Source of the DNA: Intestinibaculum porci
Lineage (GTDB): Bacteria > Bacillota_I > Bacilli_A > Erysipelotrichales > Coprobacillaceae
DNA: 64,000 nucleotides
Direction of reading: 5' to 3'
NCBI RefSeq assembly: GCF_003925875.1
Contig: NZ_AP019309.1
Coordinates: forward strand, 1,860,001-1,924,000
Every line of letters starts with the position of its first letter. Position 1 is the first letter of the stretch. The notes below the pieces were generated by a model. It was not told where the DNA came from and ran no database searches. It saw only the letters and a list, made by a program, of their open reading frames with translations. Positions 38,398 through 59,462 of the stretch are shown in pieces. Position numbers and translations under genes: made by a program.

Positions 38398-38407
38398 ACG
38401 TAACACT

Positions 38408-40306
38408 ATGAAGGCAGACAGCGCATATTTTAAACAGCAACTGAATAAAATGAGTTATGCGGACCTGATTGCGGTTGCTTTAAAATATTATGAAGAGTGC
38501 TGCGGATTACGTGCCGAACTGGATGAATTAAAAAACACATTCAGCTACACAGCCGATGAGCTTAAGAAGGTTAAAGCCGAATGCGAAGATCTAGTTATAA
38601 GAGTTAACACTCTTAATCATGAGAATACCAGACTTCAGAATCAGACGGATGAGCTCAAAAAGAATCGCTTTGGAAGAAAGTCTGAAAAGATGAATGGCAA
38701 AATCCACGATGATGAGTTTAGCGACCCTCTTTCGGAAGAAATGAATGAAAGCGACTGTGATGGTAAAAAACAGAATAATAATGACAGCCAAAAATCCAGG
38801 AAAATAAAAAGACCTGCCTGCAGGCAGCTAAACAGGAAAAAGAAGACCAGACAGATACCAGAAATAACGATTATTGACTTTGACAGGGAGCGTATCGATA
38901 AAGAATACGGCTACGGCAAATGGACATTAAAAGGCTGGAACATATCCGAAGAATTTATGTTTATTCCAGGAAATCTCTACAGGGTATATGTCAAACGCCC
39001 AGTGATCAGAGTCTATGACGATGATGATACTAATGATTTACGCGAAGTGGCACTGCCGGTTAATAAGCTGATGTTAAGGAGCAAGGTTACGCCTTCACTG
39101 CTGGCTTTTATCATGTCTTTCAAATTTGTGCTGGGAGTTCCCCTGGCAAGGCTGTCAAGGGTTCTGTCATATCAGGGAATCAACCTGTCAAAAGAGATAA
39201 TGTCAGACTGGGTCATTAAATGCACTGACAGATATCTAAAGCCAGTCTATAGCGAGATAATGAGACAAATGGCCTGCCGGACATACACCCAGATTGATGA
39301 AACCTATCTGGAAGTCATCAATGACGGAAGAAATGCGGGAAGCAAAAGCTACATATGGTGTCATATCACTGGCGAATTTGAAGAAGAGCGGCCGCTGGCA
39401 GTCTTCTGCTTCGAGCTGACAAGATCAGCGGATCACCTTCTTGAGTTCTATGCGGATCTTAACGACGGCACAATCCATCTGACATCTGATGCCTACAGCG
39501 CCTATTATAAGCTGGCTTCGGAGAAAAAGGATCATGTAATACTCGGCGGGTGCTTTATGCATCTGAGACGCAGACTGTACAAGGCATATGAAGTGAAATT
39601 TAAAGCGGTAAAGGATAAAGAGCTTCTTGAGGAAAGCCCCGAAAAAAAGTGTCTCGATATGATCGGTGATCTTTACAGCGCTGATGATGATGCCAAAGAA
39701 CTTACCGCCAAGGAAAGAGCTAAAGTCCGAGACGAAATCGAAAGACCGCTTGTCGATGCATACTTTGATTATATCAAGTCCCTTGATATCAGCAGCGGCA
39801 CTTTTAGTGAGGAAATGGAGGATGCGGTGAGCTACAGCCTCAATCATGAGGATGCATTCAGAGTGTTTCTTGATGATCCAATGGTTCCAATCGATAACGG
39901 TGAATGCGAACGCAAGATTCGTAATATAGCCATGGTCAGAAACAATAGTCTGTTCTGCTATTCCATCGGCGGCGCTGAAACGCTCTGCATCATTATGACG
40001 CTTATTGAAACTGCCAAGTCAAACGGCTGCGATCCGCATACGTATCTGGAATATCTTTTCGAAAGCTCACTTGCCCATGCCAGCGTCGATATTAGCGAAT
40101 ATATCGATGAGATGATGCCCTGGTCAAGCGAATACCAAAAATTCGAGGAAGAGAGGTTCAGCAGACCGTTAGGGAAAATACCAGACTTCTGCACTGAAGA
40201 GCCTGAAATGCCAGTTAAAGCTGATGTGGATACTGCAAGAGCTGAAAGACGACACGCAATGATGACAGAAAATATAAATAGCACAACATCCAGGCCAGCG
40301 GCTTAA
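38408..40306 (+). CDS. tnpC: IS66 family transposase TnpC
   Basis: 632 residues. A leucine-zipper-like coiled coil opens (1-90), followed by a basic/zinc-finger-like stretch and the DDE core: TQIDETYLEV for the first Asp, LTSDAYSAYYK for the second and DNGECERKIRN with the catalytic Glu. The frame is complete, so the copy is probably active. The gene follows the 122-residue gene by 10 bp. Confidence 0.95.
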   Translation: MKADSAYFKQQLNKMSYADLIAVALKYYEECCGLRAELDELKNTFSYTADELKKVKAECEDLVIRVNTLNHENTRLQNQTDELKKNRFGRKSEKMNGKIHDDEFSDPLSEEMNESDCDGKKQNNNDSQKSRKIKRPACRQLNRKKKTRQIPEITIIDFDRERIDKEYGYGKWTLKGWNISEEFMFIPGNLYRVYVKRPVIRVYDDDDTNDLREVALPVNKLMLRSKVTPSLLAFIMSFKFVLGVPLARLSRVLSYQGINLSKEIMSDWVIKCTDRYLKPVYSEIMRQMACRTYTQIDETYLEVINDGRNAGSKSYIWCHITGEFEEERPLAVFCFELTRSADHLLEFYADLNDGTIHLTSDAYSAYYKLASEKKDHVILGGCFMHLRRRLYKAYEVKFKAVKDKELLEESPEKKCLDMIGDLYSADDDAKELTAKERAKVRDEIERPLVDAYFDYIKSLDISSGTFSEEMEDAVSYSLNHEDAFRVFLDDPMVPIDNGECERKIRNIAMVRNNSLFCYSIGGAETLCIIMTLIETAKSNGCDPHTYLEYLFESSLAHASVDISEYIDEMMPWSSEYQKFEEERFSRPLGKIPDFCTEEPEMPVKADVDTARAERRHAMMTENINSTTSRPAA

Positions 40307-40737
40307 CAGCCGCCGGCCTAGGAGTGCTTGTTTTGGGTTTTATTAATATCCCGGGCAAAAAGAATTGCCTTAATCGATTAATATGCAGCCTGCTGAAGAC
40401 AGCTGAAAGATCATAAATCTATGCAAACACTAACCAGACATAGTACCGCTAGCAGATCAGACTATGAAGTTATATCTTTATTACACTGATCCAGCCCGCA
40501 GCAGCCTTCAGGCATAACAAAAAAGTAAAATCAATACTCTGAATAAGATGTCATTAATATAACTTAGCCAAATTAAACACCCCCGGCAACACTGTTAGCA
40601 GCAGTAGCTGGGGGATTTCCATTAAAAGTTATATTTATTCAAGTTAGAGAGTAACCGGTTTAAAATCAAAAATCATGCTTATATAGATTTTAAATTATCA
40701 TAATTTTGTAATTATGGATATTTAATCTAACGCTTAC

Positions 40738-41745
40738 GAACTTTACTTGCGTTACGGGTGAAAATTCTGTTCTAAACCTTTTGTCCCCATGCTCACTGAT
40801 ATCCGTCAGAAGTCTTAAATAGACTTCTGGATTCGGGACATTCGGAGAAGCAAAAATGAAGTGCGGCGGATTGTCTCGATTCTTAAGCATGTCGACGGTC
40901 TTGTAATAGAACGGGCCACGACTGTTCTTGCCGGACATCTTATGCGCCTCATCCACGAAAAGATAGTCAATCTGAATATTAGGTTTTCCAATAAGCAGAT
41001 ACAGAAGTCGTTCCGGCGTCAAAACAAGGATGAAGTTGTGGTTTCCCTCGAGAGCAATATCACTTGCAGCATTGACGACCTTGTAGTTTTTCTCCTCCAA
41101 AAGATCCTTTAGATCCTCCTTGATGATCTTCTGAGAAGTTTCGTTGATCAGCGCCTTGGTCGGAACAATAATCGCAAAGTTCAACTTAGCATCTTTTGCC
41201 ACTTGCTCCTTGATGAACATCCTCATCAGGAAGGATTTTCCCATTGACGTTGGCGCCGAGTAACTGAAATAGGAATCCTGCAGGTGATCATAAGCCTGTT
41301 TCTGTGCGCCAAAAAACCGCAGGTTCGGTGCTGCCGGAATTCTAAGATAGTCCTTCTTGTAATCCGAGAAAATTCGATTCAAGACAAATGGGTCCTCGAA
41401 GTTGGCATCAAGAAGCGAAGTCCCTCTTGCATTATCTGTATTCGCAAAAACCGATCCAGCCACAACTCGGATTTCATCGTTCTTTGGATATAATGCATTT
41501 AAGAGGACGACAATTTCCTGAGCCCACATCTTATGCTGTTCAGCTTTATCTGCGCTATTTGATTTAGAAAGCAGGTCCGCAAAACGCAGCGCATTATGGA
41601 TATTAACGTTCCGATATTCCATGCCCGTGCGAAGCGTTTTATTGGCATAGTTAAACAGGATATCTTCATATAACTGATTAAGATACCTGTTTTCCTCTAT
41701 GTCTGCGAATATTGCATCTCCGAGCCTGATTCTTTTTCTACTCAT
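40738..41745 (-). pseudogene. hamB: hamB helicase, N-terminal part, cut by IS66
   Basis: Codons 1-336 of the Hachiman helicase, starting at ATG 41745 (RBS GCGGAGG). The DEAD/DEAH core is in this half: Walker A APTSMGKS at 164-171, DEAH at 265-268, FASPN (motif III) at 298-302. IS66 insertion after codon 336 adds 15 foreign codons and a stop. HamB together with HamA confers broad phage resistance, so the Hachiman system is probably off. Confidence 0.92.
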
Positions 41746-41762
41746 ACAATCACACCTCCGCT

Positions 41763-42689
41763 TCACATCAGCAGGTTTTCCATAACCTGCTTTTTGTCCA
41801 GCTTTGCATCGTTGAAAGGCACGATGTAAAAGTAAAACGAGTGTGTATCAAGACCAAGCGTCTTTATTTTGTCCGCAATATACGCGACATGGTTCTTAAT
41901 GTCAGTATCCATCTTAGTCCCCAGATCCTTGAGAAATTCCGGTGTAGACCTTGTATGCGGATCAAGGCCAAGAGAATATCCAAGAAAGACACCGTAAGCC
42001 CGGTCGTTCGCAACAGGAGCTCCTGGTTCAGGAATAATGATGCTTTTCAGTTTATTCACGATATCCTCATCAAAAGAGTCGTTCAAAGAGCGATTGTCGA
42101 CAAACTGGATTCCGTTCCCGTTTTCATTTTCAATACGCACTATGGCATCAAAGGCACTGTCTATTGCATCCGCAATATCACCCTCGATGTCTGAGGTTCC
42201 AAACACTGTCTGGTAGTAGGACATGCCGGTAGCATCGCCAAGATCAAGAAGATGGACACTATCGCAGGCCGTGCCAAATGGAGTTGTTCCAGCATTCAGC
42301 TCAACTTTGCTGAATATCTTCGGAGCATTGAGCTTTTCCTCGAGAAAAGCATACAGGAGAATCTCTCCGAGTTCGTTTCCTGTCCCTTTCTCGTTTGCTG
42401 CTCCGTTGTGCTTCATGACCCGGAGTGCCTTGTTCCCTATGCTGCGAGGATTGCCGACACCTGGTTGTGACAGCTTCTCTATCTGGGCACGAGAGAAAAC
42501 ATACTCACTGATAATGTCCGTCAAATAATCTTCAAGGCTCGTGTACACAAAGGCATTATTGCTGACCTGCAGTCGAAAAAGGCGCAGTTGTTCCAGGTTC
42601 CGCAATCCAAGCTTTTCATTGTGCATTACTTCAGTAAAAACAGAATCCATACTTACATCAGGTAATGATCTGCTGATAGGGTTTTCCAT
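41763..42689 (-). CDS. hamA: Hachiman HamA (DUF1837) nuclease
   Basis: 308 residues of the DUF1837/HamA family, intact. The central region with NELGEILLYAFLEEKL, then KIFSKVELNAGTTPFGTACDSVHLL, carries the PD-(D/E)XK-like residues expected for the nuclease; HamA cuts DNA when released from HamB. Starts at 42689 after AAAGGAGACGC. It lies 26 bp after hsdR and its stop overlaps the region of the hamB start. Without a working helicase partner, loose nuclease activity is possible, a point worth testing. Confidence 0.9.
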   Translation of the reverse strand: MENPISRSLPDVSMDSVFTEVMHNEKLGLRNLEQLRLFRLQVSNNAFVYTSLEDYLTDIISEYVFSRAQIEKLSQPGVGNPRSIGNKALRVMKHNGAANEKGTGNELGEILLYAFLEEKLNAPKIFSKVELNAGTTPFGTACDSVHLLDLGDATGMSYYQTVFGTSDIEGDIADAIDSAFDAIVRIENENGNGIQFVDNRSLNDSFDEDIVNKLKSIIIPEPGAPVANDRAYGVFLGYSLGLDPHTRSTPEFLKDLGTKMDTDIKNHVAYIADKIKTLGLDTHSFYFYIVPFNDAKLDKKQVMENLLM

Positions 42690-42715: not shown

Positions 42716-45700
42716 TTACTCATCTTCGTATTTCTTGAAGTTCTCAGCCTGCTCCATGACCTTTTCAAAGACTTCCTCATCCCATTCTGGCGGGTATCCA
42801 TTTTTATAAAGAAGTACAGTCAAGTCCATGTTAAGCTGATTCTTGATGTCATCTCGTGTCGACCAGTCGGCAAACTGTGCTTTATCGTCAACAAGCTCCT
42901 TGATTTTTTTAGCCAGCACGATGCATTTATCGTCCGCGTACGGGAAAACGTGGTCATCGCGGACTTTTACAAGGATGTCATAGAACGCCTTCTCCTCGAA
43001 TGTAATACCCATCTTAGAGAAAGAGTCCTGATCCTCCTTCAAATCCTTCATTATGTTGATGAGCTGATCAGAAAGATCATTGACGAAATCAGCGACCACC
43101 TCGCTCGTGAATACGAGTTTGTCGCGACTATTATAAGCATCGACCACCCGTCTCAAGCGCTCGTCAAATTCGATTGCCTTTACCTTGTTCGTACGGCCAT
43201 AGGCTGTGATTGCTTTCTTCAGAAGCTTCAGAAGCGCATTGAACTTGGTAATAGGCAGCTTGACCTTCTTCAGTTCATCTACGAACTCATCGCTAAACAG
43301 ATCGACTGATTTATGCTCGTCAACGATATTTTCGATACCGGTACAGGTGATGGCGTCACGTACCATGCCTTCAACGACGCTGTTCATGACTTCTGCATCT
43401 GGCGCATTGCCTTTTGTCTGTTTGTAAATGATGGACCGGATCGCAAGGTAGAACTGAGCCGTGGCCGTTTCTTCGTCCGTCAGTTCGCCGGATGGGAAAC
43501 ATATCTGGTATGCGCTCTTGAGCCTGCGAGAAAGTCCCATGAAGCGCGTCTGCATATCTTTGCTGGTCTGTACGTATTCCGTAGCGGCATTCAGGCAGTT
43601 CAGTCGCTCCAGCGGCGTCCCGGTATAAAACTTCGTGGCATCAAATCCGGAAAGCAAATCGTTGATCATCGACAAGTGATTGCGAAAAATCGACAGAGAA
43701 ATATTCAGCTCATCGATTGGGCTTTCCTGCGGCCCGCCATACTTCTTGACCGCTGCCATCATGTCATTCTTGATACCGATATAATCGACGACTAGTCCTT
43801 TATCTTTGCCATCGAAAACGCGGTTGACTCTGGAGATCGTCTGAATCAAAGTGTGCTTCTGCAGTGGCTTGTCGATATACATGACAGCAAGAGACGGAAC
43901 ATCGAAGCCGGTAATCCACATGTCAACAACGATTGCTATTTTGAAATTCGAGTCATTATTTTTGAACTGCTTATCGAGCATCTTCCGGTAATCCTTTGTG
44001 CCGCAAAGATCGAACAGTTCCTTCTCATCGTTTTGACCCTGCGTAGCCACAAGGTTAATCTTCGGAAGCGCCACGAGCTTATCAAGCTGTTCGCGTGTCA
44101 GCTTGGATTCATCCTCGGCTTTCCTAGGAACCTTCCAATCCGGTCTTATTACCTGTATAGCTTTCAGCACCTTGAAAGCATTCTGCCTGTCAGAGCAAAC
44201 GATCATAGCTTTTTGCACGACGTCAGGCTTTTCGGCGCACAGTGATTCATAGTGCGAGACGATATCCGCGGCGAGCTTTTTAATTCGTTCCGGATGTCCA
44301 AGGATAGCGGACATCTTGCTCATGGCCCGCTTGCTTTCCTCTACCTGCTCCGGATTTGAACCTTCCTCAACGCACTGCTCGTAATACTTCTGGATTTCCT
44401 TCGCCTGCTCATCAGACAGGATGACACGGGCGAGACGGGGCTCATAAGCAATGCGCACGGTGATGCCGTCGTCACTGGATTCCTTCATCGTATAGCTGTC
44501 AACGACATCTCCGAATACAGCAACCGTCTCATCGATAGGTGTTCCAGTGAATCCACAGTAGGTAGCATTCGGAAAACTATCGCGCAGATACTTGGCAAAT
44601 CCGAATGTCGTGTAAACACCATTTTCTGTTTTCTTTAGCTTTGACCCGATATTCGTTTGTGTCCGATGTGCCTCATCCGAAATACAGATGATGTTGTTGC
44701 GGTCTGAAAGTAAACCAATCTTTTCACAGAACTTCTGTATAGTTGTGATATACACACCGCCGCTTGGTTTGTCCCTGAGAGTTTTCTCAAGATCATCACG
44801 GCTCTCTATGCTCCGGACATCCTCCTGATGCAGATAATGTTTTGCTGTCACAAACAACTCGGAAGTCTGCGTGTCTAGATCTTCGCGGTCCTCCAGAATG
44901 ATAATCGTGGGATTCTTAAATGTATCACTGTCGCGCAGCATGATAAGCCGAGACAAAAACAGCATCGTGTAGGTCTTACCGCATCCTGTCGCTCCGAAGT
45001 AGGTGCCGCCTTTTCCATCGCCGTCAGGCCGCATGTGCAGCTTGATGTTGGCAAGCATCTTTTCTGCGGCGAAAAACTGCGGATACCGGCAGACAATGAC
45101 GTCATCCTTTGAGCTGTCATCTGGGTAGAAAATAAAGTCGCGAAGAATTTTCAAGACCCGTTCTTTTACAAATGCGCCCTCTATCATAGTAAGCAAGGAA
45201 CTGATACCATTCGAGACCTTGTCTTTGTCATTTGCCCTGTTCCACGAGTAGTAGAACCGATAAGGTGTGAAGACACTACCCATTTTGGTATTCACTCCGT
45301 CACTGATGACGGACATAAAGCAATATTTTAGGAGATTCGGAATATCGCGCTTATAGCGGATTGTAATCTGCTCCCACGCGTCATGAATCGTCTTGTCTTC
45401 CTCGATTGCGGTCTTGAACTCGCAAATGCCTATCGGAATGCCATTGATGAAGATTAGCAGATCCGGTCGGCGCAGCCGATCGCCCTGAACAGCGTACTGG
45501 TTCACGACGCGGAAAACATTATTCTCCGGGTGATCGAAATCGATATAATCGATGTGCAGAGCGACATCATTGATATTATCCCTGACAAGATCGAACCCCT
45601 CCACAACAAGCCAAAAGGCCTGGCGGTTCGAATAGTAAAACGGCGTAGAGGGAATCAGCGTCAGCATGGTGATGATCTTCTCCATCTCCACATCGCTGAG

Positions 45701-45883
45701 GTTCTTGTCCGAATACTTCCGGTTCAGGAATGTGCGCAGATCGTTTTCAAGAAGGATGTCTTCAAAACGGCGGTGAATATCTTCGCCGTATGTATATTCG
45801 TATCCCTGTATCTGGAAAAGCTCTATGATGGCATGTTCCAGTTCGTCTTCTGTAAATTTGCCTTTTTCGAAGATATAATCCAC
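42716..45883 (-). CDS. hsdR: type I restriction endonuclease, R subunit
   Basis: 1055 residues. The N-terminal nuclease has the RPDLLIFINGIPIGICEFK block (Asp141, Glu155, Lys157 of the PD-(D/E)XK site). Walker A is GATGCGKT at 297-304 and DEAH at 403-406, followed by the rest of the SF2 motor and a helical C-terminus. It translocates DNA and cuts far from unmodified sites. GTG start at 45883 with GGAAGGAGG, 16 bp after hsdS. Full length, no lesions. Confidence 0.93.
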   Translation of the reverse strand: MDYIFEKGKFTEDELEHAIIELFQIQGYEYTYGEDIHRRFEDILLENDLRTFLNRKYSDKNLSDVEMEKIITMLTLIPSTPFYYSNRQAFWLVVEGFDLVRDNINDVALHIDYIDFDHPENNVFRVVNQYAVQGDRLRRPDLLIFINGIPIGICEFKTAIEEDKTIHDAWEQITIRYKRDIPNLLKYCFMSVISDGVNTKMGSVFTPYRFYYSWNRANDKDKVSNGISSLLTMIEGAFVKERVLKILRDFIFYPDDSSKDDVIVCRYPQFFAAEKMLANIKLHMRPDGDGKGGTYFGATGCGKTYTMLFLSRLIMLRDSDTFKNPTIIILEDREDLDTQTSELFVTAKHYLHQEDVRSIESRDDLEKTLRDKPSGGVYITTIQKFCEKIGLLSDRNNIICISDEAHRTQTNIGSKLKKTENGVYTTFGFAKYLRDSFPNATYCGFTGTPIDETVAVFGDVVDSYTMKESSDDGITVRIAYEPRLARVILSDEQAKEIQKYYEQCVEEGSNPEQVEESKRAMSKMSAILGHPERIKKLAADIVSHYESLCAEKPDVVQKAMIVCSDRQNAFKVLKAIQVIRPDWKVPRKAEDESKLTREQLDKLVALPKINLVATQGQNDEKELFDLCGTKDYRKMLDKQFKNNDSNFKIAIVVDMWITGFDVPSLAVMYIDKPLQKHTLIQTISRVNRVFDGKDKGLVVDYIGIKNDMMAAVKKYGGPQESPIDELNISLSIFRNHLSMINDLLSGFDATKFYTGTPLERLNCLNAATEYVQTSKDMQTRFMGLSRRLKSAYQICFPSGELTDEETATAQFYLAIRSIIYKQTKGNAPDAEVMNSVVEGMVRDAITCTGIENIVDEHKSVDLFSDEFVDELKKVKLPITKFNALLKLLKKAITAYGRTNKVKAIEFDERLRRVVDAYNSRDKLVFTSEVVADFVNDLSDQLINIMKDLKEDQDSFSKMGITFEEKAFYDILVKVRDDHVFPYADDKCIVLAKKIKELVDDKAQFADWSTRDDIKNQLNMDLTVLLYKNGYPPEWDEEVFEKVMEQAENFKKYEDE

Positions 45884-45899: not shown

Positions 45900-47033
45900 T
45901 CAGGCTCCTGCTTCTTCGAGGGAGCCTTTTATTAATATCGGGCACATGCTCTTGATGCGTTCTTTGAGACGATTACTAATTGATCTTCTGTCTATATAAG
46001 CTCGATAAATATCGACAATTGCCTTCTGTTCATCTATAGATGGAATCGGTATCTCTATTTCATAGAAACGGTCTAAGTCAAGATTGGAGCGCACACTTGA
46101 ATCACTCATAAACCAGCCTCGACGATCGCTCTCTTCACGTGAAAACCACATCATTATAAATTCCGGCAAGACCAGGTCCTTCTTTACTTCAAAAACCGTA
46201 TAAGCAGGCGAGACAATTATAGGTTTATCAGAAGTTTGAAGAGCGATGCGGATACATTTATCTCTACCCGTCTGCATGCCGCTATATGCAATCTGATTAT
46301 TTTGAACTATCTTATAACGATTGAGATTAATGTCTGTAGTGTTTGCGACCGTTGGCATAAATTGCTTTGTAATATTTATACCCTCAATATCTTCTATAGT
46401 TCCATCACTGTTTCTATTATCTATTTCATTAAGGAGCTCCCCGACAGCAATTGTATGTGCATGGTGTTTCTCCTTGTCCAAAATAGAATCAAATGCAATC
46501 TTCAAATCTTCCAGCCCGCGTTCATAGCTTTGCTGATTGACCAGCATGGCATTGTAGACATCCACGTACTTCTGCTGGATATTAAGCGGCGGAAGGTCGA
46601 TATCGATCTCACATATATCTTCCCAATTAAAGAATTCTGTTGAACTTCCCCAAGAATTAGTGATTACATACCTGTCAAATTCTGACCTCTTGAAAAACAT
46701 ATACAGCCATCTGGCTAAAAGGATTTTTTGCTTTGCTTCGTCAGTGATTCGAAATACGACATAGTCTTCCGTACATATCACGGGCGTCTCCATATCGTTA
46801 TAGGCGATACTGAACTTACTCCCGTTTCTTGAAGTCCTGTGATTGAAAACAAACTCATCTGGATACACAATTTGAAATTTACTTAAGTCTCTACCACTTA
46901 TATCGGCTTTTGTCGGCATAAGTTCTTTGAGGTTATTTACCCCGCGAACATCATCAATTCCATAAATAAGTTCAGTATTTCTATTGTCAAGAAGCTGTAT
47001 GAGATCACCCAGCTTATACTTAGTCAATGCCAT
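45900..47033 (-). CDS. hsdS: type I restriction specificity subunit S
   Basis: 377 residues with two target recognition domains. Each domain begins with a similar block (DNRNTELIYGIDDVRGVNN and DNRNSDGTIEDIEGINIT) and is followed by a conserved helical spacer (LPPLNIQQKYVDVYN and IPSIDEQKAIVDIY). The recognised site cannot be deduced. It overlaps the hsdM stop by 14 bp. The short first-domain spacer suggests a compact recognition sequence. Confidence 0.9.
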   Translation of the reverse strand: MALTKYKLGDLIQLLDNRNTELIYGIDDVRGVNNLKELMPTKADISGRDLSKFQIVYPDEFVFNHRTSRNGSKFSIAYNDMETPVICTEDYVVFRITDEAKQKILLARWLYMFFKRSEFDRYVITNSWGSSTEFFNWEDICEIDIDLPPLNIQQKYVDVYNAMLVNQQSYERGLEDLKIAFDSILDKEKHHAHTIAVGELLNEIDNRNSDGTIEDIEGINITKQFMPTVANTTDINLNRYKIVQNNQIAYSGMQTGRDKCIRIALQTSDKPIIVSPAYTVFEVKKDLVLPEFIMMWFSREESDRRGWFMSDSSVRSNLDLDRFYEIEIPIPSIDEQKAIVDIYRAYIDRRSISNRLKERIKSMCPILIKGSLEEAGA

Positions 47034-48657
47034 AGCCGATCCCCCTAAATGCTTCTTCGAGCATGGCCTGCGACTTCTTCTCGGTCTTCAAAACGACCTT
47101 CATTTCGCTCTGAATGAGGGACATTTCTTTTTCGTAATCAATGTCTAGATCATGGTCAATGAACTCGATGTATTTGCTTGGTGCGAGTGAGTAGTCCTTT
47201 GCTCGTATTTCGTCCAGTGTCGCTGATTGGCAAAACTCTGGGACGTCTTTATACAGGGAAGTGTCGTTGGACTGCCAGTTGTTGTAGACCTGCTTCACCT
47301 TGGTAATCTGCTCGTCGGTGAGGACGGTTTTCTTTTTCTTTTTGCGTTTGTCGATGACAATCTCTTCAATGTTCTGATTCCAGGTGCGCAGATCCATGAA
47401 AAGCACCTGATTCGTCCGATCACGCAGCTGTCTACCATTCACGGTTCCAGCGTGCTTATTCATGTTGACGATCCAAAGCGTCACGGAAATGTCCGTCGTG
47501 TAGAACATATCTCGAGGCAATACAATGATTGCCTCCACGAAGTCCTTTTCAAGAATCTGGCTGCGGATGGTTTTCTCATCGCCATCTGCATTCAGCGCAC
47601 CATTAGCAAGAAGGAATCCAGCGATGCCGTGAGTAACATCAAGCTTTGAAATGATGTGCTCCACCCATGCGTAGTTGGCGTTTGCCACCGGCGGTATAAC
47701 TCCGCCATAGCCCTTGAATCGCGGATCATCTGTCAGCTGATCCTTCGTGCGCCAGCCTTTAAGGTTGAACGGCGGATTGGCCATGACGTAGTCGACCTTC
47801 TTATCTCTATGAAGGTCATCCGTAAATGTGGAGGCGTTCTTTTCTCCGAGGTTATGTGCAATGCCACGAATGGCGAGATTCATCTTGCACAGCCGCCAGG
47901 TATCCGGATTGCTTTCCTGTCCGATAATGGAGATCTTCTGCCTGTTCCCTTTATGGCGATCAACAAATTTCATGGACTGTACAAACATTCCACCACTTCC
48001 ACAGCAGGGATCATAAACTGTCCCAGAATACGGCTCAATCATCTCCGCGATGAGTTTTACTACACATGCAGGCGTATAGAATTCACCGTCTTCCTTTGTG
48101 CCAGAAGCCGCATAGGCCTGTAAGAAGTATTCATATACGCGTCCAATCAGGTCCTCATCCTGAAATCGCTTCTTATCAATCTTATTGACGTTGTCGATCA
48201 GATCCTTAAGCTTTGCAGTTGTTGCGCCGAGCGTAGCAAAGAAAGTGTAGACCGAATTCCCATCCTTATCCCTTGATGACAATGCGCCCTTCAGAGAAGG
48301 ATTCATCCGCTCGATATCAGCCATAGCGGTGTCGAGAATAACCGCGATATCATTATCGCCTGCGTGCGCCACGATGTACGACCAGCGGGATGTCTCATTA
48401 AGGTAGAACACGTTGACGGAGTTATAGGACGAGACCTTGGCCTTCATGATATTAAACAGTCCTTCATCTGATCCATACTGTTCTTTCAGTTCCTGATAGC
48501 GCTTCTCGAATTTGTCTCCCGCAAATTTCAGGAAAACTAAAGAAATTACGGCGTCTCTATTTTTTTCTGTGCTTCCTATACCACGAAGCGCTACTCGGCA
48601 GTTCCATAGAACTGTTTCCAGCGACACTTCTTTATCTTTTTTAGCTGCTCTTGCCAT
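47020..48657 (-). CDS. hsdM: type I DNA methyltransferase subunit M
   Basis: 545 residues. The N-terminal domain (to about 150) is followed by the Rossmann-type methyltransferase: SAM-binding motif I DPCCGSGG at 216-223 and catalytic NPPF at 294-297 for N6-adenine methylation. The start is MARAAKKDK (ATG at 48657, AAGGAGAAATAAAAAT ahead), overlapping the end of the small HTH gene. A longer frame upstream has no ribosome site. Confidence 0.93.
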   Translation of the reverse strand: MARAAKKDKEVSLETVLWNCRVALRGIGSTEKNRDAVISLVFLKFAGDKFEKRYQELKEQYGSDEGLFNIMKAKVSSYNSVNVFYLNETSRWSYIVAHAGDNDIAVILDTAMADIERMNPSLKGALSSRDKDGNSVYTFFATLGATTAKLKDLIDNVNKIDKKRFQDEDLIGRVYEYFLQAYAASGTKEDGEFYTPACVVKLIAEMIEPYSGTVYDPCCGSGGMFVQSMKFVDRHKGNRQKISIIGQESNPDTWRLCKMNLAIRGIAHNLGEKNASTFTDDLHRDKKVDYVMANPPFNLKGWRTKDQLTDDPRFKGYGGVIPPVANANYAWVEHIISKLDVTHGIAGFLLANGALNADGDEKTIRSQILEKDFVEAIIVLPRDMFYTTDISVTLWIVNMNKHAGTVNGRQLRDRTNQVLFMDLRTWNQNIEEIVIDKRKKKKKTVLTDEQITKVKQVYNNWQSNDTSLYKDVPEFCQSATLDEIRAKDYSLAPSKYIEFIDHDLDIDYEKEMSLIQSEMKVVLKTEKKSQAMLEEAFRGIGYGID

Positions 48658-48661
48658 ATTT

Positions 48662-48880
48662 TTATTTCTCCTTGCCATCTTTGTTATTATCGTCGGACGC
48701 TCCGCCAGAGCGAATCCAATCGTCGACTTCGCTAAGCTTGAATTTCCACAATCGTCCAACCTTATATGCAGGCATGTTACGTTTGTTGATCCATTGCAGT
48801 ATGGTTTCACGTCCGACACCGAGATATGACTGTACATCTTTCAAAGCCACCCACGGTTCGACATTAAATCTTTCTTCCAC
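48662..48880 (-). CDS. excisionase-type HTH protein
   Basis: 72 residues, MerR/Xis-like winged helix: WVALKDVQSYLGVGRETILQWINKRNMPAYKVGRLWKFK with a charged tail. Starts at a GTG (48880) after GGAGGTAAAGGC. It stands just before hsdM in the same operon, a position often seen for small regulators or accessory DNA-binding proteins of type I systems. Confidence 0.85.
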   Translation of the reverse strand: MEERFNVEPWVALKDVQSYLGVGRETILQWINKRNMPAYKVGRLWKFKLSEVDDWIRSGGASDDNNKDGKEK

Positions 48881-48893
48881 GCCTTTACCTCCA

Positions 48894-49691
48894 TCAGTTC
48901 CCGAATGTTGTGTCTATCTCAACATCAAATATGTTTCTGCTTCCGGGAAAGCAGTTATTACCGTTTTCGTCTACCATATCCCACTTGATGGTGAATGGTC
49001 CTTCTTGGCCACGGGCATTGAAGTCCGTGGCTATTTTTGTATATTTTCCCGGCTGTAATTCCTTAATTTCTATTTCAAATACCTTTGTCCGCCTGCCAGT
49101 CTCCTCAGGATTGGCGCAGACCAGCTTACGTTTATGCCAGATGACGCTTCCTTGATTATGTATCACCCATGTGTGGTGAATGTCTTCATAGAATGCCGCG
49201 GCATGTTTTTTTGTCCGATCCTCCACCCATACATCATCACCATCATACAGGCGTCTTGTTATCTTATAGACGCCAGCTTCTTTTCGCACCCGAGCTTCCT
49301 CATATTTGTCCGGCACGATGTTTTCTGATTCTGTCTCCTCACGATTCGAGATGAATGCAACAACCTGCGCTGCCAGTGCGTAGGACAGGTATGACAGACT
49401 CTTCTCCTCATCAGCAGGAATTCCGAACGCATCCGCCAGCAGCTTTACATACTCCGGCTGCAAGTACTTCTCAAAGAAAGCAACAATGCTGTCAATGCTC
49501 ACTGGATGAGGGAAGTGCCTTTTCATGTTTGAGGCAAAAGGTTTAGTTCCGTTGAATACTGCTTTCAAATGATCATCGGAATAATCTCGGCGTATCCCTG
49601 CGGCCTTGAACAGGTCCTTCAGATACCAGGACTGCTTGTTATAGCCAAAATATTGTGGCTTCGTCAGCTTGCAGAACTCTGAAAAATCCAC
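48894..49691 (-). CDS. NBR1-Ig-like (FW) domain protein
   Basis: 265 residues, first gene of the defence operon. The C-terminal half (about residues 150-262) has the four-tryptophan-type immunoglobulin plan (HHTWVIHNQGSVIWHKRKLVC, GPFTIKWDMVDENGN) known from NBR1-Ig-like domains. The N-terminal half is a helical domain of unknown type (TKPQYFGYNKQSWYLKDLFKAAG). A function as an accessory sensor of type I restriction is inference. I use GTG at 49691, spaced from AAGGGAGG; GTG at 49700 is an alternative. Confidence 0.65.
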   Translation of the reverse strand: MDFSEFCKLTKPQYFGYNKQSWYLKDLFKAAGIRRDYSDDHLKAVFNGTKPFASNMKRHFPHPVSIDSIVAFFEKYLQPEYVKLLADAFGIPADEEKSLSYLSYALAAQVVAFISNREETESENIVPDKYEEARVRKEAGVYKITRRLYDGDDVWVEDRTKKHAAAFYEDIHHTWVIHNQGSVIWHKRKLVCANPEETGRRTKVFEIEIKELQPGKYTKIATDFNARGQEGPFTIKWDMVDENGNNCFPGSRNIFDVEIDTTFGN

Positions 49692-49796
49692 GCCGGACAC
49701 CTCCCTTCAAAAAGAACCATGAAAAGAACCAAAGAACCATGAGATACCTGGAACAGCCTATTTTGTGCTGTTTTTTGCCCTGTTATCTTATAGGTG

Positions 49797-50828: not shown

Positions 50829-50920
50829 GTAAGCGTATGAGGTAATATCCATGAAATTAGTTATGCCTTCTATTAGAATTATTAATGTATCAAATTATTC
50901 TAATAGGGAGGCTTTTGCAT

Positions 50921-51343
50921 ATGTATTTTTCGGAAAAGGATTGCAAAATGATCATTAAATGGACTGGCATTATTGAAAATCAGGGAAAAAGCGGTCTTTC
51001 CTTAGCTAAATGGTGTACCAAAAATAATGTTGGTTTAAGTACACTGTCACATTATAAAAAGATTATCAGGGATCTCATGATAAAACACGGAATCAGCACC
51101 TACAGTGATTTAAGATCACTGGCAGAGCGCAGCTGCCAAAACAATAATATTGACCCGTATCGGGGTGACGGCAACGGCACTTTTTATTCTGTTGATTTAA
51201 ATGACAGTTCTCCTCAAACCGGTAATAGCGTCTCCAAATCGTCAGGAGTGAGACTTCAGAAGAATGGATTTGTCATTGAGATTGATTCACATTTTGATGA
51301 AGAAACGCTGACAAGAGTTATGGCGGTGGTTAAAAATGCTTAG
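50921..51343 (+). CDS. tnpA: IS66 TnpA-type helper protein (copy 2)
   Basis: 140 residues, same protein as at 37142. Complete frame with the same ribosome site and overlap with tnpB. Confidence 0.88.
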   Translation: MYFSEKDCKMIIKWTGIIENQGKSGLSLAKWCTKNNVGLSTLSHYKKIIRDLMIKHGISTYSDLRSLAERSCQNNNIDPYRGDGNGTFYSVDLNDSSPQTGNSVSKSSGVRLQKNGFVIEIDSHFDEETLTRVMAVVKNA

Positions 51344-51674
51344 AGAACTGACAGGCATCAAAAGAATTGTAATAAGAACCGGAAAGACTGATCTGCGCAG
51401 AGGCATTACCGGTCTGGCTTCAGTTATAGCCGCTGAATATCATATGAATCCGATGGAAAAAGGAACCATTTATCTTTTCTGCGGTGGCAGAAGAGATCGT
51501 ATCAAGGGGCTTCTTTACGAAGAAGGCGGATGGGTTCTTATCTATGTCCGACTTTCAAAAGGAAGTGCCTTTCAGTGGCCTAGAGATGATCAGGAAGCTC
51601 GTGATATAACGCGTGAACAGTACGAAAGACTGTTGGACGGATTTACTTTGGATGGTACAATAAATAAGCGCTGA
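51336..51674 (+). CDS. tnpB: IS66 TnpB helper protein (copy 2)
   Basis: 112 residues, same protein as at 37557. Confidence 0.92.
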   Translation: MLRELTGIKRIVIRTGKTDLRRGITGLASVIAAEYHMNPMEKGTIYLFCGGRRDRIKGLLYEEGGWVLIYVRLSKGSAFQWPRDDQEARDITREQYERLLDGFTLDGTINKR

Positions 51675-51807
51675 TAAAGGAAATATCACTCCTCTGATGG
51701 TAATTCAAAACTGAACAATATAGTGATATTATATTCGCTTAATATCACTATTATCTTGAATTTTAGTCTTCATAGTGTTATAATAGTATATAGGACGAGG
51801 TGATGGA

Positions 51808-52176
51808 ATGGCTATCATCAAACAGACCAACAAGACTACAGGCATTACCTATGTCTACGAGTCTAAGAGCTACTGGGATCCTGAAAAGAAGCAGGCTCGC
51901 TCCAAGCGAAAGCTGATCGGAAAAATTGATCCCGAAACCGGCAAAATGGTCCCCACCGGCAAAAAAGGTCCACAGAAGAAAAAGAGCGGAGAACCTTCAG
52001 CTGCCGAGAGGAGACAGTCAGCCGAATTAGCCAGACTGAAAAAGGAAAATATGGATCAGATGATATTAATCACTGATCTTCGCAAGCAGATAGAATCATT
52101 AAGCAGCCAGAACACAAAATTAAAGCAGCTGATTAGTGAGATCAGACAGCTAACCGTATCGTCAGAGGAGATCTAA
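51808..52176 (+). CDS. IS66-associated small protein (copy 2)
   Basis: 122 residues, same protein as at 38029. Confidence 0.8.
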   Translation: MAIIKQTNKTTGITYVYESKSYWDPEKKQARSKRKLIGKIDPETGKMVPTGKKGPQKKKSGEPSAAERRQSAELARLKKENMDQMILITDLRKQIESLSSQNTKLKQLISEIRQLTVSSEEI

Positions 52177-52186
52177 ACGTAACACT

Positions 52187-54085
52187 ATGAAGGCAGACAG
52201 CGCATATTTTAAACAGCAACTGAATAAAATGAGTTATGCGGACCTGATTGCGGTTGCTTTAAAATATTATGAAGAGTGCTGCGGATTACGTGCCGAACTG
52301 GATGAATTAAAAAACACATTCAGCTACACAGCCGATGAGCTTAAGAAGGTTAAAGCCGAATGCGAAGATCTAGTTATAAGAGTTAACACTCTTAATCATG
52401 AGAATACCAGACTTCAGAATCAGACGGATGAGCTCAAAAAGAATCGCTTTGGAAGAAAGTCTGAAAAGATGAATGGCAAAATCCACGATGATGAGTTTAG
52501 CGACCCTCTTTCGGAAGAAATGAATGAAAGCGACTGTGATGGTAAAAAACAGAATAATAATGACAGCCAAAAATCCAGGAAAATAAAAAGACCTGCCTGC
52601 AGGCAGCTAAACAGGAAAAAGAAGACCAGACAGATACCAGAAATAACGATTATTGACTTTGACAGGGAGCGTATCGATAAAGAATACGGCTACGGCAAAT
52701 GGACATTAAAAGGCTGGAACATATCCGAAGAATTTATGTTTATTCCAGGAAATCTCTACAGGGTATATGTCAAACGCCCAGTGATCAGAGTCTATGACGA
52801 TGATGATACTAATGATTTACGCGAAGTGGCACTGCCGGTTAATAAGCTGATGTTAAGGAGCAAGGTTACGCCTTCACTGCTGGCTTTTATCATGTCTTTC
52901 AAATTTGTGCTGGGAGTTCCCCTGGCAAGGCTGTCAAGGGTTCTGTCATATCAGGGAATCAACCTGTCAAAAGAGATAATGTCAGACTGGGTCATTAAAT
53001 GCACTGACAGATATCTAAAGCCAGTCTATAGCGAGATAATGAGACAAATGGCCTGCCGGACATACACCCAGATTGATGAAACCTATCTGGAAGTCATCAA
53101 TGACGGAAGAAATGCGGGAAGCAAAAGCTACATATGGTGTCATATCACTGGCGAATTTGAAGAAGAGCGGCCGCTGGCAGTCTTCTGCTTCGAGCTGACA
53201 AGATCAGCGGATCACCTTCTTGAGTTCTATGCGGATCTTAACGACGGCACAATCCATCTGACATCTGATGCCTACAGCGCCTATTATAAGCTGGCTTCGG
53301 AGAAAAAGGATCATGTAATACTCGGCGGGTGCTTTATGCATCTGAGACGCAGACTGTACAAGGCATATGAAGTGAAATTTAAAGCGGTAAAGGATAAAGA
53401 GCTTCTTGAGGAAAGCCCCGAAAAAAAGTGTCTCGATATGATCGGTGATCTTTACAGCGCTGATGATGATGCCAAAGAACTTACCGCCAAGGAAAGAGCT
53501 AAAGTCCGAGACGAAATCGAAAGACCGCTTGTCGATGCATACTTTGATTATATCAAGTCCCTTGATATCAGCAGCGGCACTTTTAGTGAGGAAATGGAGG
53601 ATGCGGTGAGCTACAGCCTCAATCATGAGGATGCATTCAGAGTGTTTCTTGATGATCCAATGGTTCCAATCGATAACGGTGAATGCGAACGCAAGATTCG
53701 TAATATAGCCATGGTCAGAAACAATAGTCTGTTCTGCTATTCCATCGGCGGCGCTGAAACGCTCTGCATCATTATGACGCTTATTGAAACTGCCAAGTCA
53801 AACGGCTGCGATCCGCATACGTATCTGGAATATCTTTTCGAAAGCTCACTTGCCCATGCCAGCGTCGATATTAGCGAATATATCGATGAGATGATGCCCT
53901 GGTCAAGCGAATACCAAAAATTCGAGGAAGAGAGGTTCAGCAGACCGTTAGGGAAAATACCAGACTTCTGCACTGAAGAGCCTGAAATGCCAGTTAAAGC
54001 TGATGTGGATACTGCAAGAGCTGAAAGACGACACGCAATGATGACAGAAAATATAAATAGCACAACATCCAGGCCAGCGGCTTAA
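52187..54085 (+). CDS. tnpC: IS66 family transposase TnpC (copy 2)
   Basis: 632 residues, same protein as at 38408. Complete DDE frame, so both copies could move. Confidence 0.95.
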   Translation: MKADSAYFKQQLNKMSYADLIAVALKYYEECCGLRAELDELKNTFSYTADELKKVKAECEDLVIRVNTLNHENTRLQNQTDELKKNRFGRKSEKMNGKIHDDEFSDPLSEEMNESDCDGKKQNNNDSQKSRKIKRPACRQLNRKKKTRQIPEITIIDFDRERIDKEYGYGKWTLKGWNISEEFMFIPGNLYRVYVKRPVIRVYDDDDTNDLREVALPVNKLMLRSKVTPSLLAFIMSFKFVLGVPLARLSRVLSYQGINLSKEIMSDWVIKCTDRYLKPVYSEIMRQMACRTYTQIDETYLEVINDGRNAGSKSYIWCHITGEFEEERPLAVFCFELTRSADHLLEFYADLNDGTIHLTSDAYSAYYKLASEKKDHVILGGCFMHLRRRLYKAYEVKFKAVKDKELLEESPEKKCLDMIGDLYSADDDAKELTAKERAKVRDEIERPLVDAYFDYIKSLDISSGTFSEEMEDAVSYSLNHEDAFRVFLDDPMVPIDNGECERKIRNIAMVRNNSLFCYSIGGAETLCIIMTLIETAKSNGCDPHTYLEYLFESSLAHASVDISEYIDEMMPWSSEYQKFEEERFSRPLGKIPDFCTEEPEMPVKADVDTARAERRHAMMTENINSTTSRPAA

Positions 54086-54524
54086 CAGCCGCCGGCCTAG
54101 GAGTGCTTGTTTTGGGTTTTATTAATATCCCGGGCAAAAAGAATTGCCTTAATCGATTAATATGCAGCCTGCTGAAGACAGCTGAAAGATCATAAATCTA
54201 TGCAAACACTAACCAGACATAGTACCGCTAGCAGATCAGACTATGAAGTTATATCTTTATTACACTGATCCAGCCCGCAGCAGCCTTCAGGCATAACAAA
54301 AAAGTAAAATCAATACTCTGAATAAGATGTCATTAATATAACTTAGCCAAATTAAACACCCCCGGCAACACTGTTAGCAGCAGTAGCTGGGGGATTTCCA
54401 TTAAAAGTTATATTTATTCAAGTTAGAGAGTAACCGGTTTAAAATCAAAAATCATGCTTATATAGATTTTAAATTATCATAATTTTGTAATTATGGATAT
54501 TTAATCTAACGCTTACTTTCCTTT

Positions 54525-55693: not shown

Positions 55694-55788
55694 GCACGAG
55701 TTGATAGTAAGTACGTCACAGGCCCCAGTGAATACCCTGGAACCCAACCACTTACTCTTTAACGATAGCTCCATTTTTGCACCCACCT

Positions 55789-56247
55789 TTATGCAGCATC
55801 AAATGTTCTTATCTTATTTAAAAAACTATCCATATAACCGTTCATTTCCTCATAACGATCAGAAAGCTCGTTAACCGCCTTATCATTCATGCTATGAGTA
55901 AGCGAATCTCTAAGTTTCTTAACTGACCTGCTACCTATTTTTTCTTCTGCACCAAACAACTTTGTCAACAACTCTTTATCAAAATCGTATCCTGCAAACG
56001 CCAACGCATGCGGCGCCTGCTTCATTGTGACTTTCAAATAATCTGGATGTTTCCTGTTTTTATTAAATTGGTGTTCTTCTAAAATAACCTTGTAAACTAT
56101 CTCGCGTATGGAGAACTTTTCTTTAAAGTCATCTATCAACTTCTTCTTTTCTTTATCAGCAACCAGTTTCTCAATACGAATCAGCTCATCTTTCGCTCGA
56201 TTTCTTAAGGACAACTTTTGTGTCTCATCCAACTGCGTTAACGCCAT
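55789..56247 (-). CDS. possible HEPN-type protein next to a McrC relic
   Basis: 152 residues, helical. Residues 113-118 read RDSLTH, an R-x4-H motif of the kind that forms the active site of HEPN ribonucleases, in a helix (SVKKLRDSLTHSMNDKAVNEL). The rest (DELIRIEKLVADKEKKKLI, then KQAPHALAFAGYDFDKELL) fits a HEPN-like bundle. It lies 25 bp after the McrC remnant in the same direction. The start ATG follows GGAGGAGTACATAG. Function is inferred from motif and context only. Confidence 0.5.
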   Translation of the reverse strand: MALTQLDETQKLSLRNRAKDELIRIEKLVADKEKKKLIDDFKEKFSIREIVYKVILEEHQFNKNRKHPDYLKVTMKQAPHALAFAGYDFDKELLTKLFGAEEKIGSRSVKKLRDSLTHSMNDKAVNELSDRYEEMNGYMDSFLNKIRTFDAA

Positions 56248-56272
56248 CTATGTACTCCTCCGTCAAATTCTC

Positions 56273-56585
56273 TTATGTAATGTTTGGAGATAGAATACGT
56301 AAGAGTTCTTCCATACTTTTTTCTATATTCGCCACATCTACAAAGAACAATGAAACCGTCGCACCATCTCCACTATCAAAAGTAATTCTTCCGCTATCTT
56401 TCATAGCGGCATTGACCGGATAAAGAAGCCATATTTCTGGCGTAACATATTTCTTGGAATACGCATACATCTGATACATGTCGGCCTGAGATATCCCATA
56501 GTTGGCCCCTTTGTCATTGACGAGACTCTTCCACTTGGTATCGAGAATAATAACACTGCCATCATCCCTGGTAACAACAATGCTT
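56273..56585 (-). pseudogene. mcrC: C-terminal remnant of McrC
   Basis: About 104 codons from TPSIVVTRDDG. DDGSVIILDTKWKSL is the PD-(D/E)XK nuclease core of McrC (LDTKWK), followed by DMYQMYAYSKKYVTPEIWLLYP, and it ends at a natural stop. The N-terminal two thirds are missing, joined to an HTH gene remnant. McrBC cuts methylated DNA; no McrB GTPase is visible here. Confidence 0.7.
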
Positions 56586-56589
56586 GGTG

Positions 56590-56777
56590 TTCTTCTCTTT
56601 TATATACTTTCCGCTTTTTATACGCTCATCATTTTGCTTTTCTGCATCTGAAGGAATCGCCCAGTATGAACCTATCTTTGTAGCACCTGGTATGCGGCCC
56701 TCTGAACACAACACTTGAATTCTCCTGACGGATATACCCCACTTCTCTGATGTTTATTTTATAGATAAGTACTCCAT
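56590..56777 (-). pseudogene. HTH gene remnant fused to the mcrC remnant
   Basis: MEYLSIK, a TAA stop, then TSEKWGISVRRIQVLCSEGR and GATKIGSYWAIPSDAEK: an excisionase-type DNA-binding protein as found before restriction genes. The early stop and the out-of-frame junction to McrC make it a pseudogene. Confidence 0.6.
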
Positions 56778-56938
56778 ATTATCCTTTCTTAGATAGAAAA
56801 AGGCATTTTACAACTTAAATTTAAGTTTATGCCAAAGTACGAACAAAATCAATTAAAAAAGTGGAAAGGATAATCACCTCACCGCTAGTATTTATCTATC
56901 AATATCCATGTCAATTCCTGCTTTAAAGGTAAGCGTAA

Positions 56939-57811: not shown

Positions 57812-58720
57812 TTAGCGATTTCTTTTTCCGGTATTCTTTGTCCCACGGATTTCTTCATGATAGAAATAATCTACGATCACCGGATGTCCCTGTGGGACTC
57901 TGCCATAAGGCATTTCATTATCAACAAAGGCACAATCATACTTCTTATCCATTTTCTCAGCTTTTACTTCAAGTGCTTCAAAGTAGCTGCGTTTATGCTT
58001 GTTATAGATCTCATCGTAAAGCGGTACAAGATCAGGATATTTTCCGGCGATATAATCCATAATCGTCTTTTTGAAACCGCCTCGAAGATTTAGATTTTCG
58101 AGCCAGAACAGATCACACTGCTCCTTTACCCGCTCAAAGATTGCTTCAAAATCCGTGATACCGGGGAATACCGGGGATACGAAACAGACTGTACGGATAC
58201 CTGATTCATATACCTGCTTCATAGCAGCGATACGGCGCTCAATGCTCGAAGCAGAGTCCATATCGTTCTTGAAATTTTCATCTAGTGTGTTGATCGACCA
58301 TGAAACGGTTACACGTCCAAGCTTCTTCAGCAGATCAATATCCCGTACCACAAGATCCGACTTTGTGCAGATCAGAATATCTGCGTCACTGCCGATCAGC
58401 TGCTCCAGAAGTTTTCTGGTATTCCCGTATTGCTCCTCCTGTGGATTGTAGCCATCTGTCACAGAACCGATGACCACCCGCTGTCCCGCATATTTCTTCG
58501 GATTTTTAATTTCCGGCCAATGCTTCACATCAAGGAAAGTGCCCCATTCCTCCTTGTGCCCGGTAAAGCGCTTCATAAAAGAAGCATAGCAATACTTGCA
58601 GGCATGTGTACAGCCCACATAGGGGTTGACCGAGTAACCGCCTACCGGCAGACTAGACTTAGTCATGATGTTCTTTGTTTCCACCTCACGAATGAGGATT
58701 CCATTTATTATTTCTTCCAT
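57812..58720 (-). CDS. SPL-family radical SAM protein (mobile pair protein)
   Basis: 302 residues with the SAM cluster ligands Cys37, Cys41 and Cys44 in CTHACKYC, and a TIM-barrel-like rest (RVVIGSVTDGYNPQEEQY). It belongs to the spore-photoproduct-lyase-like radical SAM group. The downstream partner frame overlaps by 13 bp at its start. Pairs of such radical SAM genes are known from mobile elements (radical SAM mobile pair); the reaction is unknown. Confidence 0.8.
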   Translation of the reverse strand: MEEIINGILIREVETKNIMTKSSLPVGGYSVNPYVGCTHACKYCYASFMKRFTGHKEEWGTFLDVKHWPEIKNPKKYAGQRVVIGSVTDGYNPQEEQYGNTRKLLEQLIGSDADILICTKSDLVVRDIDLLKKLGRVTVSWSINTLDENFKNDMDSASSIERRIAAMKQVYESGIRTVCFVSPVFPGITDFEAIFERVKEQCDLFWLENLNLRGGFKKTIMDYIAGKYPDLVPLYDEIYNKHKRSYFEALEVKAEKMDKKYDCAFVDNEMPYGRVPQGHPVIVDYFYHEEIRGTKNTGKRNR

Positions 58721-59397
58721 GATTTCTGTACCTCTAACACTTTATTAAATTCTTCCGGCATTTCCTGAATCATATTTTCATCCCCTATGATAGGGACAAG
58801 GTCTTCCTTCATAAACACCGGAATGCTTAGCTTATGTGCCTGGTCCGCCAGAGACCATGCCCATTCCGGCTCCGTATGAATCTTCCTGCTCTGAGCTCCG
58901 GTCATGGTGCCGACAACGATCCAATTGATTCCGGAAAGGTCAACTGTGCCGGGATCGTCGAATAACGGCTCAAAGGTAACATGGTAATGTTTTGCTCTGA
59001 CGTTTTCCCGAAGGGCGTCGATACGCCACAGTTCTGCTTTCCTCGTCACCGTAACGCCAAACCATGCGTTTTTCAGATCGGTATCAAAATCCAGCAAATC
59101 AGGTTGCTTGGTAAGGAACAGGAACTGATGCTGTGGATTTTCACGGATCTTTTCAAACACCTCGTCTCTCCATTCCGGCTTCCATCCAGAGAGATCGCTC
59201 ATGCCGGTAAGAAGAAAGTTCTGCGGACGTTTCTTTTCCATCATCTTGAGCTTACCCGGAAAGAATTCAGGAGCAGCGAAGTCATCAATCATACGCCAGC
59301 GTTTCACGTTGTTGCGGGCATAGCAATATGTACACCCCACTGTGCAGCCAATGACGATATTCATGTTCTGAATCTGATCTTTGATACAAATACTCAT
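58708..59397 (-). CDS. DUF5131/Gp37-Gp68-type radical SAM protein
   Basis: 229 residues from MSICIKDQIQNMNIV. Radical SAM ligands Cys18, Cys22 and Cys25 in CTVGCTYC; further PQHQFLFLTKQPDLL and HVTFEPLFDDPG. DUF5131 proteins are phage or mobile-element-linked. The chosen start ATG at 59397 is spaced from GGCAG; its TGA-overlapping start couples it to the gene remnant before it. Paired with the SPL-like protein, as in radical SAM mobile pairs. Confidence 0.8.
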   Translation of the reverse strand: MSICIKDQIQNMNIVIGCTVGCTYCYARNNVKRWRMIDDFAAPEFFPGKLKMMEKKRPQNFLLTGMSDLSGWKPEWRDEVFEKIRENPQHQFLFLTKQPDLLDFDTDLKNAWFGVTVTRKAELWRIDALRENVRAKHYHVTFEPLFDDPGTVDLSGINWIVVGTMTGAQSRKIHTEPEWAWSLADQAHKLSIPVFMKEDLVPIIGDENMIQEMPEEFNKVLEVQKSWKK

Positions 59398-59462
59398 GAC
59401 TTCTGCCACTCCTCAAGATTCTTTCTGATGCGGTCGAGGTATTCCTCAAACCGAGTAATTTC
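59394..59462 (-). pseudogene. tail of the third gene of the radical SAM pair locus, cut by a transposon
   Basis: The minus strand reads EITRFEEYLDRIRKNLEEWQKS and a TGA that overlaps the ATG of the DUF5131 gene. The sequence upstream of codon 22 is the end of the Mu/Tn7-like element (TG at 59463), so the transposon broke this gene. Confidence 0.6.

Follow-up and report, generated by a model that had tools for sequence, protein, structure and literature searches.

A rare, probably HEPN-family protein encoded behind an mcrBC relic in Intestinibaculum porci and beside other DNA-targeting defence modules elsewhere

Introduction

HEPN proteins are described as carrying an Rx4-6H motif, with a polar residue (N, D or H) after the arginine and often an upstream acidic residue, typically within an Ex3[KR] element, and HEPN RNases encoded beside restriction systems have been proposed to provide a second, RNA-level line of defence (PMC3710099). 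Stand-alone HEPN back-up effectors have been described for BREX (PMC12839542). Here we analyse a 152-aa protein encoded within a 64,000-nucleotide stretch of the Intestinibaculum porci chromosome (hereafter, the window), which an initial annotation of the sequence had proposed as a HEPN-like accessory effector left behind by an McrBC-type system.

Several described arrangements resemble this locus. HEPN genes linked to McrBC, as reported for DUF4145 neighbours (PMC3710099) and for CnuE of CoCoNuT systems (PMC11090510), likewise tie a HEPN RNase to McrB/McrC. In the description of CoCoNuTs, CnuE bears an additional wHTH and is part of helicase operons, whereas the HEPN gene studied here, of ~150 aa, stands alone and overlaps mcrC. 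The layout of PD-T4-2 is two genes. This tested anti-T4 system also pairs DUF262 with HEPN, but PF18735 is the family given for its HEPN protein, and its DUF262 protein is described without DUF1524 (PMC9519451, PMC10952713). In Thermus IN93-like phages, a HEPN gene of 126 aa occupies a variable part of the provirus, which holds restriction endonucleases in related proviruses, and its product has been proposed as a defence effector (PMC11437467); compared by description rather than sequence, it is a close parallel in layout. Tha is described as a prophage HEPN effector, an RNase that needs its motif histidine and is active only on a trigger, but it has 301 aa and its own N-terminal part (PMC11087260). 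Nuclease-protease pairs illustrate how one effector module can be adopted by unrelated immune systems, although as described they consist of a DNase proenzyme and a protease, with no HEPN protein (PMC12799240). In mostly open-access literature on HEPN proteins with McrBC, DUF262, BrxU, DdmD, type IV restriction or GmrSD, we found no description of the 152-aa family. The add-on HEPN effector is a known kind; what appears new is this family, together with the variety of its neighbours.

Results

An HTH-McrB-McrC operon reduced to a relic

The minus strand of the window from 56225 to 56777 is the remnant of an HTH-McrB-McrC operon, as judged by nucleotide alignment with an intact relative in [Clostridium] polysaccharolyticum DSM 1801 (locus L003). 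This single locus aligned to window positions 55748-56927 (-) in two blocks: window 56580-55748 with L003 7271-8103, over 833 ungapped bp at 88% nucleotide identity, and window 56927-56592 with L003 2170-2508, over 340 aligned columns at 80% identity. The blocks are separated by 4,762 bp in L003 (2509-7270) and by 11 bp in the window, a difference for which one clean deletion is the simplest account. The L003 interval covers the final codons of the HTH gene, the whole of mcrB and ~334 mcrC codons. L003 encodes a 1233-aa McrB (AAA_5), a 452-aa McrC (PF10117, E 1.2e-92) and an HTH protein whose match to HTH_17 (PF12728, E 8.4e-6) falls just short of the cut-off.

L003 has both a McrB GTPase and a complete McrC, whereas at the window locus mcrB is gone and ~118 of 452 mcrC codons remain, about the last quarter of the gene rather than the last third first annotated. 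Pfam recognized just 21 residues of this piece (PF10117, E 0.013, below the cut-off), but its McrC origin is firm because of the 88% nucleotide identity to the L003 operon over 833 ungapped bp. The HTH relic has a stop at codon 8 and differs in reading frame from the McrC piece, which has an internal stop near its end. The two genes had been annotated as fused and dead; they are dead, but because the pieces are joined out of frame, each with its own stop, there is no fusion protein.

Table 1. Features of the locus in window coordinates.
Position	Strand	Feature	Basis or remark
55789..56247	-	Intact 152-aa gene, probable HEPN-family protein (E49-x3-K53; R113-D114-x3-H118)	
56255..56261	-	GGAGGAG, likely ribosome-binding site, 7 nt 5' of ATG	By eye; also in L003 and L002
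56225..56580	-	mcrC relic of ~118 3'-terminal codons with one internal stop; 23-nt overlap with HEPN start	L003 alignment, Pfam
56581..56591	-	11-bp deletion junction replacing L003 2509-7270 (4,762 bp)	
56592..56777	-	HTH gene relic, stop at codon 8	Match to L003 HTH gene
56892..56927	-	Large serine recombinase tail, ~11 codons and stop	Likewise 5' of the operon in L003

Elsewhere in the window, two IS66 copies in the same orientation (37050-40737 and 50829-54516), identical over 3,688 bp, flank a type I restriction-modification system (hsdM 47020-48837, hsdS 45900-47033, hsdR 42716-45883) and helicase-like genes (40690-42689), and the segment is possibly a composite transposon carrying a defence island. 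Adjoining hsdM, the product of 48894-49700 (-) has 268 aa and an NBR1-type Ig-like domain (PF16158, E 1.5e-6, passing the cut-off). At 57812-59409 (-), a radical SAM gene (PF04055) adjoins a DUF5131 gene (PF07505), both open and near transposase genes.

The intact gene belongs to a small, scattered family

The gene behind the relic is open throughout its 152 codons, in agreement with the initial annotation, and its first 23 nt are shared with the end of mcrC both in the window and in L003. The RDSLTH motif that had drawn attention to it occupies residues 113-118. The source genome has one copy and a search of 97 relatives gave no match at E 0.001 (1/98 counting its own genome), so its acquisition was probably horizontal. 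Of the copies found, that of L003 was nearest (88% identity), followed by that of Butyrivibrio sp. MB2005, L002 (76%).

Whole-genome profile searches for further members were positive in 6 of 397 genomes of the L003 genome's family and in 2 of 391 of its class, the L003 genome being counted both times. In two genera (1/79 and 1/31) and in the family of genome G956 (1/16), the query genome alone was positive each time. In the window's phylum, 12 of 392 genomes had a match at E up to 0.01, from which we retained the window's own genome, L006/L028, L007 and the fragment L004; rescored with a 10-row profile, the L007 member gave E 5.5e-14, and the remaining matches were dropped because the larger profile did not recover them. 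The fragment, L004 1399-1683 (-), encodes 94 aa, covers family residues 4-51 only and lies ~0.5 kb from a RhuM gene (PF13310).

Alignment A4 comprises 11 full-length members (window, L002, L003, L007, L023, L024, L025, L026, L027, L028 and L031) with 18-88% identity to the window protein. In leave-one-out HMM searches, each of six distant groups (a member or a pair) was recovered, at E 3.7e-14 to 3.5e-40, and a profile built from five sequences, the window protein and the four members closest to it, recovered the other six members at E 6.1e-7 or better (E values scaled to 5,000 sequences). No match was found by tblastn against phage and plasmid sequences (queries P0001, L023, L027, L031 and L007, not all against both) or in viral-contig scans sensitive to close relatives only. 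No member (0/11) exceeded a Pfam cut-off, and NCBIfam (one member scanned), PHROGs (five) and PADLOC (nine) gave no convincing match.

The family very probably belongs to the HEPN superfamily

Two lines of evidence carry this assignment. First, E49, F98, R113, H118 and M139 are invariant in all 11 members, at identities as low as 18%. Every member has the Rx4-6H motif, with a spacing of 4 throughout, and the polar residue after R113 is Asp in eight and Asn in three. The position four residues after E49 is Lys or Arg in 10/11 members and His in L028, and this pair corresponds to the published Ex3[KR] element (PMC3710099). Second, hhalign of the 11-row A4 profile with a 3-row profile of fetched PF18737 (HEPN_MAE_28990) proteins, the one HEPN family tried, gave a probability of 65.9% and a score of 36.3 over window residues 50-121, with RxxxxH in register; in 60 nulls (59 column shuffles and one reversal), the maxima were 0.8% and 17.9. 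PF18737 proteins share with our family the RxxxxH motif, the polar residue after the arginine and this in-register match, but the PF18737 model is longer (211 positions) and was listed by hmmscan for 0/11 members (E up to 1). When 297 ORFs were scanned one by one, a PF18737 member came top (44.4%, next 10.5%), but the other two ranked 80 and 84.

Other comparisons added less. HEPN_Apea weakly matches the L002 member (residues 32-131, E 0.045), a match of little weight since it is below the cut-off and outranked by YARHG (E 0.015) in the same protein. The HEPN fold has four helices, with the motif closing helix 3 and the second acidic residue in helix 2. A low-confidence AlphaFold model from three close sequences, whose pLDDT of 45 is too low for use in fold assignment, was all-helical, with R113 inside and H118 just past a helix spanning residues 106-117; any helix placement of E49 comes from this model too. 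Searching PDB profiles with a 9-row alignment returned chance matches only (best E 0.082). We set aside a PADLOC match to PDC-S04 (E 0.0027, residues 30-82), which spans E49 but misses RxxxxH, and weaker PADLOC lines (GajA, DpdI and HerA; E 0.009-0.05).

Taken together, these results make it very probable, on evidence that is good if not conclusive, that the 152-aa family belongs to the HEPN superfamily. The first reading of RDSLTH as a HEPN-like motif gains accordingly: R113 and H118, whose conservation in homologues had been set beforehand as a test of that reading, are invariant in 11/11 members, and the family profile resembles PF18737.

The window copy may be losing function

Constraint on the HEPN family is real, and the window copy, which the initial annotation suggested might still act alone, may be losing function. 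Its dN/dS relative to L003 is 0.083, and that of the dead mcrC piece is 0.069. Because the relic's value is similar, we rejected dN/dS as a sign of ongoing selection on the orphan; most divergence seems older than the deletion, and the measure is blind to the time since. That the window copy is now a dying passenger with no present function is a tentative reading, to which we give somewhat less than even odds, and it is compatible with the explanation that we favour for the family as a whole. Its partner has been deleted; residue 48, adjoining E49, is Arg in the window protein alone and Cys in 10/10 other members; and comparison with the L003 gene gives 10 amino-acid changes private to the window and 3 private to L003. 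Conversely, the ORF, the catalytic residues and the ribosome-binding site are all intact, and 14 of the 18 changed codons on the window branch are synonymous, though most of that divergence probably predates the deletion.

Members lie beside different defence modules

Five of the 11 members follow a recognised DNA-targeting defence module, which in the window is the McrBC relic. In L003, the gene ends an intact HTH-McrB-McrC-HEPN operon (23-nt overlap), and downstream of it come an HTH-type gene and one for a type I methylase. HEC-05 DUF262 enzymes lie 487 bp upstream of the L023 member (PADLOC E 1.2e-147) and 27 bp upstream of the L026 member (PADLOC E 6.5e-196); in work on V. cholerae, HEC-05 is treated as the same as BrxU, which is a type IV enzyme resembling GmrSD (PMC11411939; PMC10952713). 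The L027 member lies 102 bp behind an operon for three proteins: a helicase resembling DdmD (E 4.7e-46), one with a weak resemblance to DdmE (E 7e-5) and a third of 752 aa. In the segment L027 915-9875, the 752-aa protein has an RNECIH motif (DUF4209, E 0.11), and from its sequence the segment is possibly a DdmDE variant with two HEPN-like proteins.

The remaining contexts comprise two pairs or rows of uncertain role, one gene near but outside a system, one among phage genes and two with no such neighbour. The L024 member precedes a vWA-type gene by 11 bp, and an AAA (MoxR-like) gene comes next, a row of uncertain role; the L025 member lies 20 bp before a PDDEXK_4 gene. L002 has a solitary copy, preceded by a Tn916-Xis-type gene and followed by a recombinase-like tail (identified by eye; no Pfam match), and its upstream region contains JetC of Wadjet and a RhuM gene. 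The L007 member (1111-1635) lies between terminase (phrog_9) and portal (phrog_12) genes, presumably in a prophage and in an unusual spot for a defence cargo gene. Inspection of the ORF lists by eye revealed no defence neighbour in L031 or L028.

In a FastTree phylogeny, the HEC-05-linked L023 member joins the McrBC clade (support 0.976) and the HEC-05-linked L026 member joins the DdmDE-like L027 (1.0). Because the HEC-05 cases fall in different clades, neighbours have been swapped more than once or lost repeatedly. With relatives adjoining other systems, the family is not specific to McrBC, and our best reading is a rare, partner-swapping auxiliary HEPN RNase. In L034 and L036, by eye, PF18737 HEPN genes lie directly 3' of or overlap DUF262-type genes, the same slot that our family occupies behind HEC-05.

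Conversely, most partners do without the gene. McrC was present in 38/200 genomes of the L003 genome's family, and among 30 mcrC loci, fetched with ~1.5 kb of flank at most and including at least one (L037) that ends at a contig edge and is uninformative, the HEPN-family gene occurred at one, in the already known L003 genome. HEC-05 was found in 5/200 genomes, with the gene downstream in one of the five (G444, known beforehand). These frequencies argue against a tight partnership, and the gene is a rare optional extra to McrBC and HEC-05. Even so, its position beside HEC-05 in 2/11 members is hardly chance given how rare HEC-05 itself is, which is a judgement rather than a computed probability. 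The proposal of an accessory effector of an McrBC-type system thus holds in part: the L003 McrBC operon does end in this gene, but other systems have it too, and the survey of mcrC neighbourhoods that the proposal called for found it at a single locus of 30.

Discussion

We consider it likely that the family supplies an auxiliary effector to various neighbouring DNA-sensing defence modules. This effector would be a single-domain HEPN protein and most probably a metal-independent endoRNase. For the family, we infer RNase activity, activation by a partner and a role in defence. The partner, here formerly McrBC and elsewhere a BrxU-type enzyme or a DdmDE-like pair, would sense DNA that is foreign or modified. 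Either by touching the engaged partner or through something that the partner's action produces, the HEPN RNase would be switched on; once active, it would cut RNA and so stop phage production or arrest the cell, adding a second line of defence. In the source genome, one deletion took away McrB and most of McrC, leaving the HEPN gene orphaned with its ribosome-binding site. We counted several observations against this explanation: no member passes a Pfam cut-off, the single-sequence hhalign ranks are mixed, most partners lack the gene, the structural model has a pLDDT of 45, L031 and L028 have no defence neighbour, and the window copy has Arg48 and its private changes.

A broader version, in which the protein is a general plug-in RNase that reads a signal common to McrBC, BrxU-type and DdmDE-like systems, such as the NTPase state of the engaged partner or the DNA ends that the partner produces, seems to us rather unlikely. 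It would turn restriction into an RNA-level abortive defence, and solitary copies would exploit any partner in the cell.

Less probable still is a toxin restrained by its neighbour, with McrBC or BrxU as the antitoxin and the HEPN RNase freed when a phage inhibits the partner. PrrC, described as restrained by the PrrI system, sets a precedent (PMC3710099), and the arrangement would give an identical gene order. Copies without an intact adjacent partner (window, L002, L028 and L031) argue against an always-active toxin, unless they are unexpressed or inactivated. Nor did a crude regular expression, applied up to 4 kb per side and less at short loci, find an ORF like the adjacent minimal nucleotidyltransferase of HEPN-MNT toxin-antitoxin pairs near the 11 members; its two matches lie inside HsdS and AAA reading frames.

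We regard as improbable a self-sufficient phage sensor like Tha, for which the neighbourhoods merely reflect defence islands. The L007 member between terminase and portal genes, presumably in a prophage, and the existence of lone copies are in keeping with it, as is Tha itself, a prophage HEPN protein whose expression alone is described as not slowing growth (PMC11087260). However, a length of ~150 aa, against 301 aa for Tha-1, leaves scant space for a sensor domain, and the 23-nt mcrC overlap in L003 and the 11-27 bp spacings in L024, L025 and L026 point to co-expression. Finally, a coincidental motif in an unrelated helical protein is very improbable: no library family passes its cut-off, no fold is confident and the low-scoring Pfam matches are mixed, but the arginine, the histidine and the upstream glutamate are invariant at 18-25% identity and the PF18737 profile matches with the motif in register.

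That HEPN RNases occur beside restriction systems is well established. The partners of the 152-aa family differ mechanistically. If the protein is an add-on effector, one small gene and two of its partners could tell partner contact from a shared signal as the trigger, and the window, in which a deletion has parted an effector from its sensor, would provide a natural experiment.
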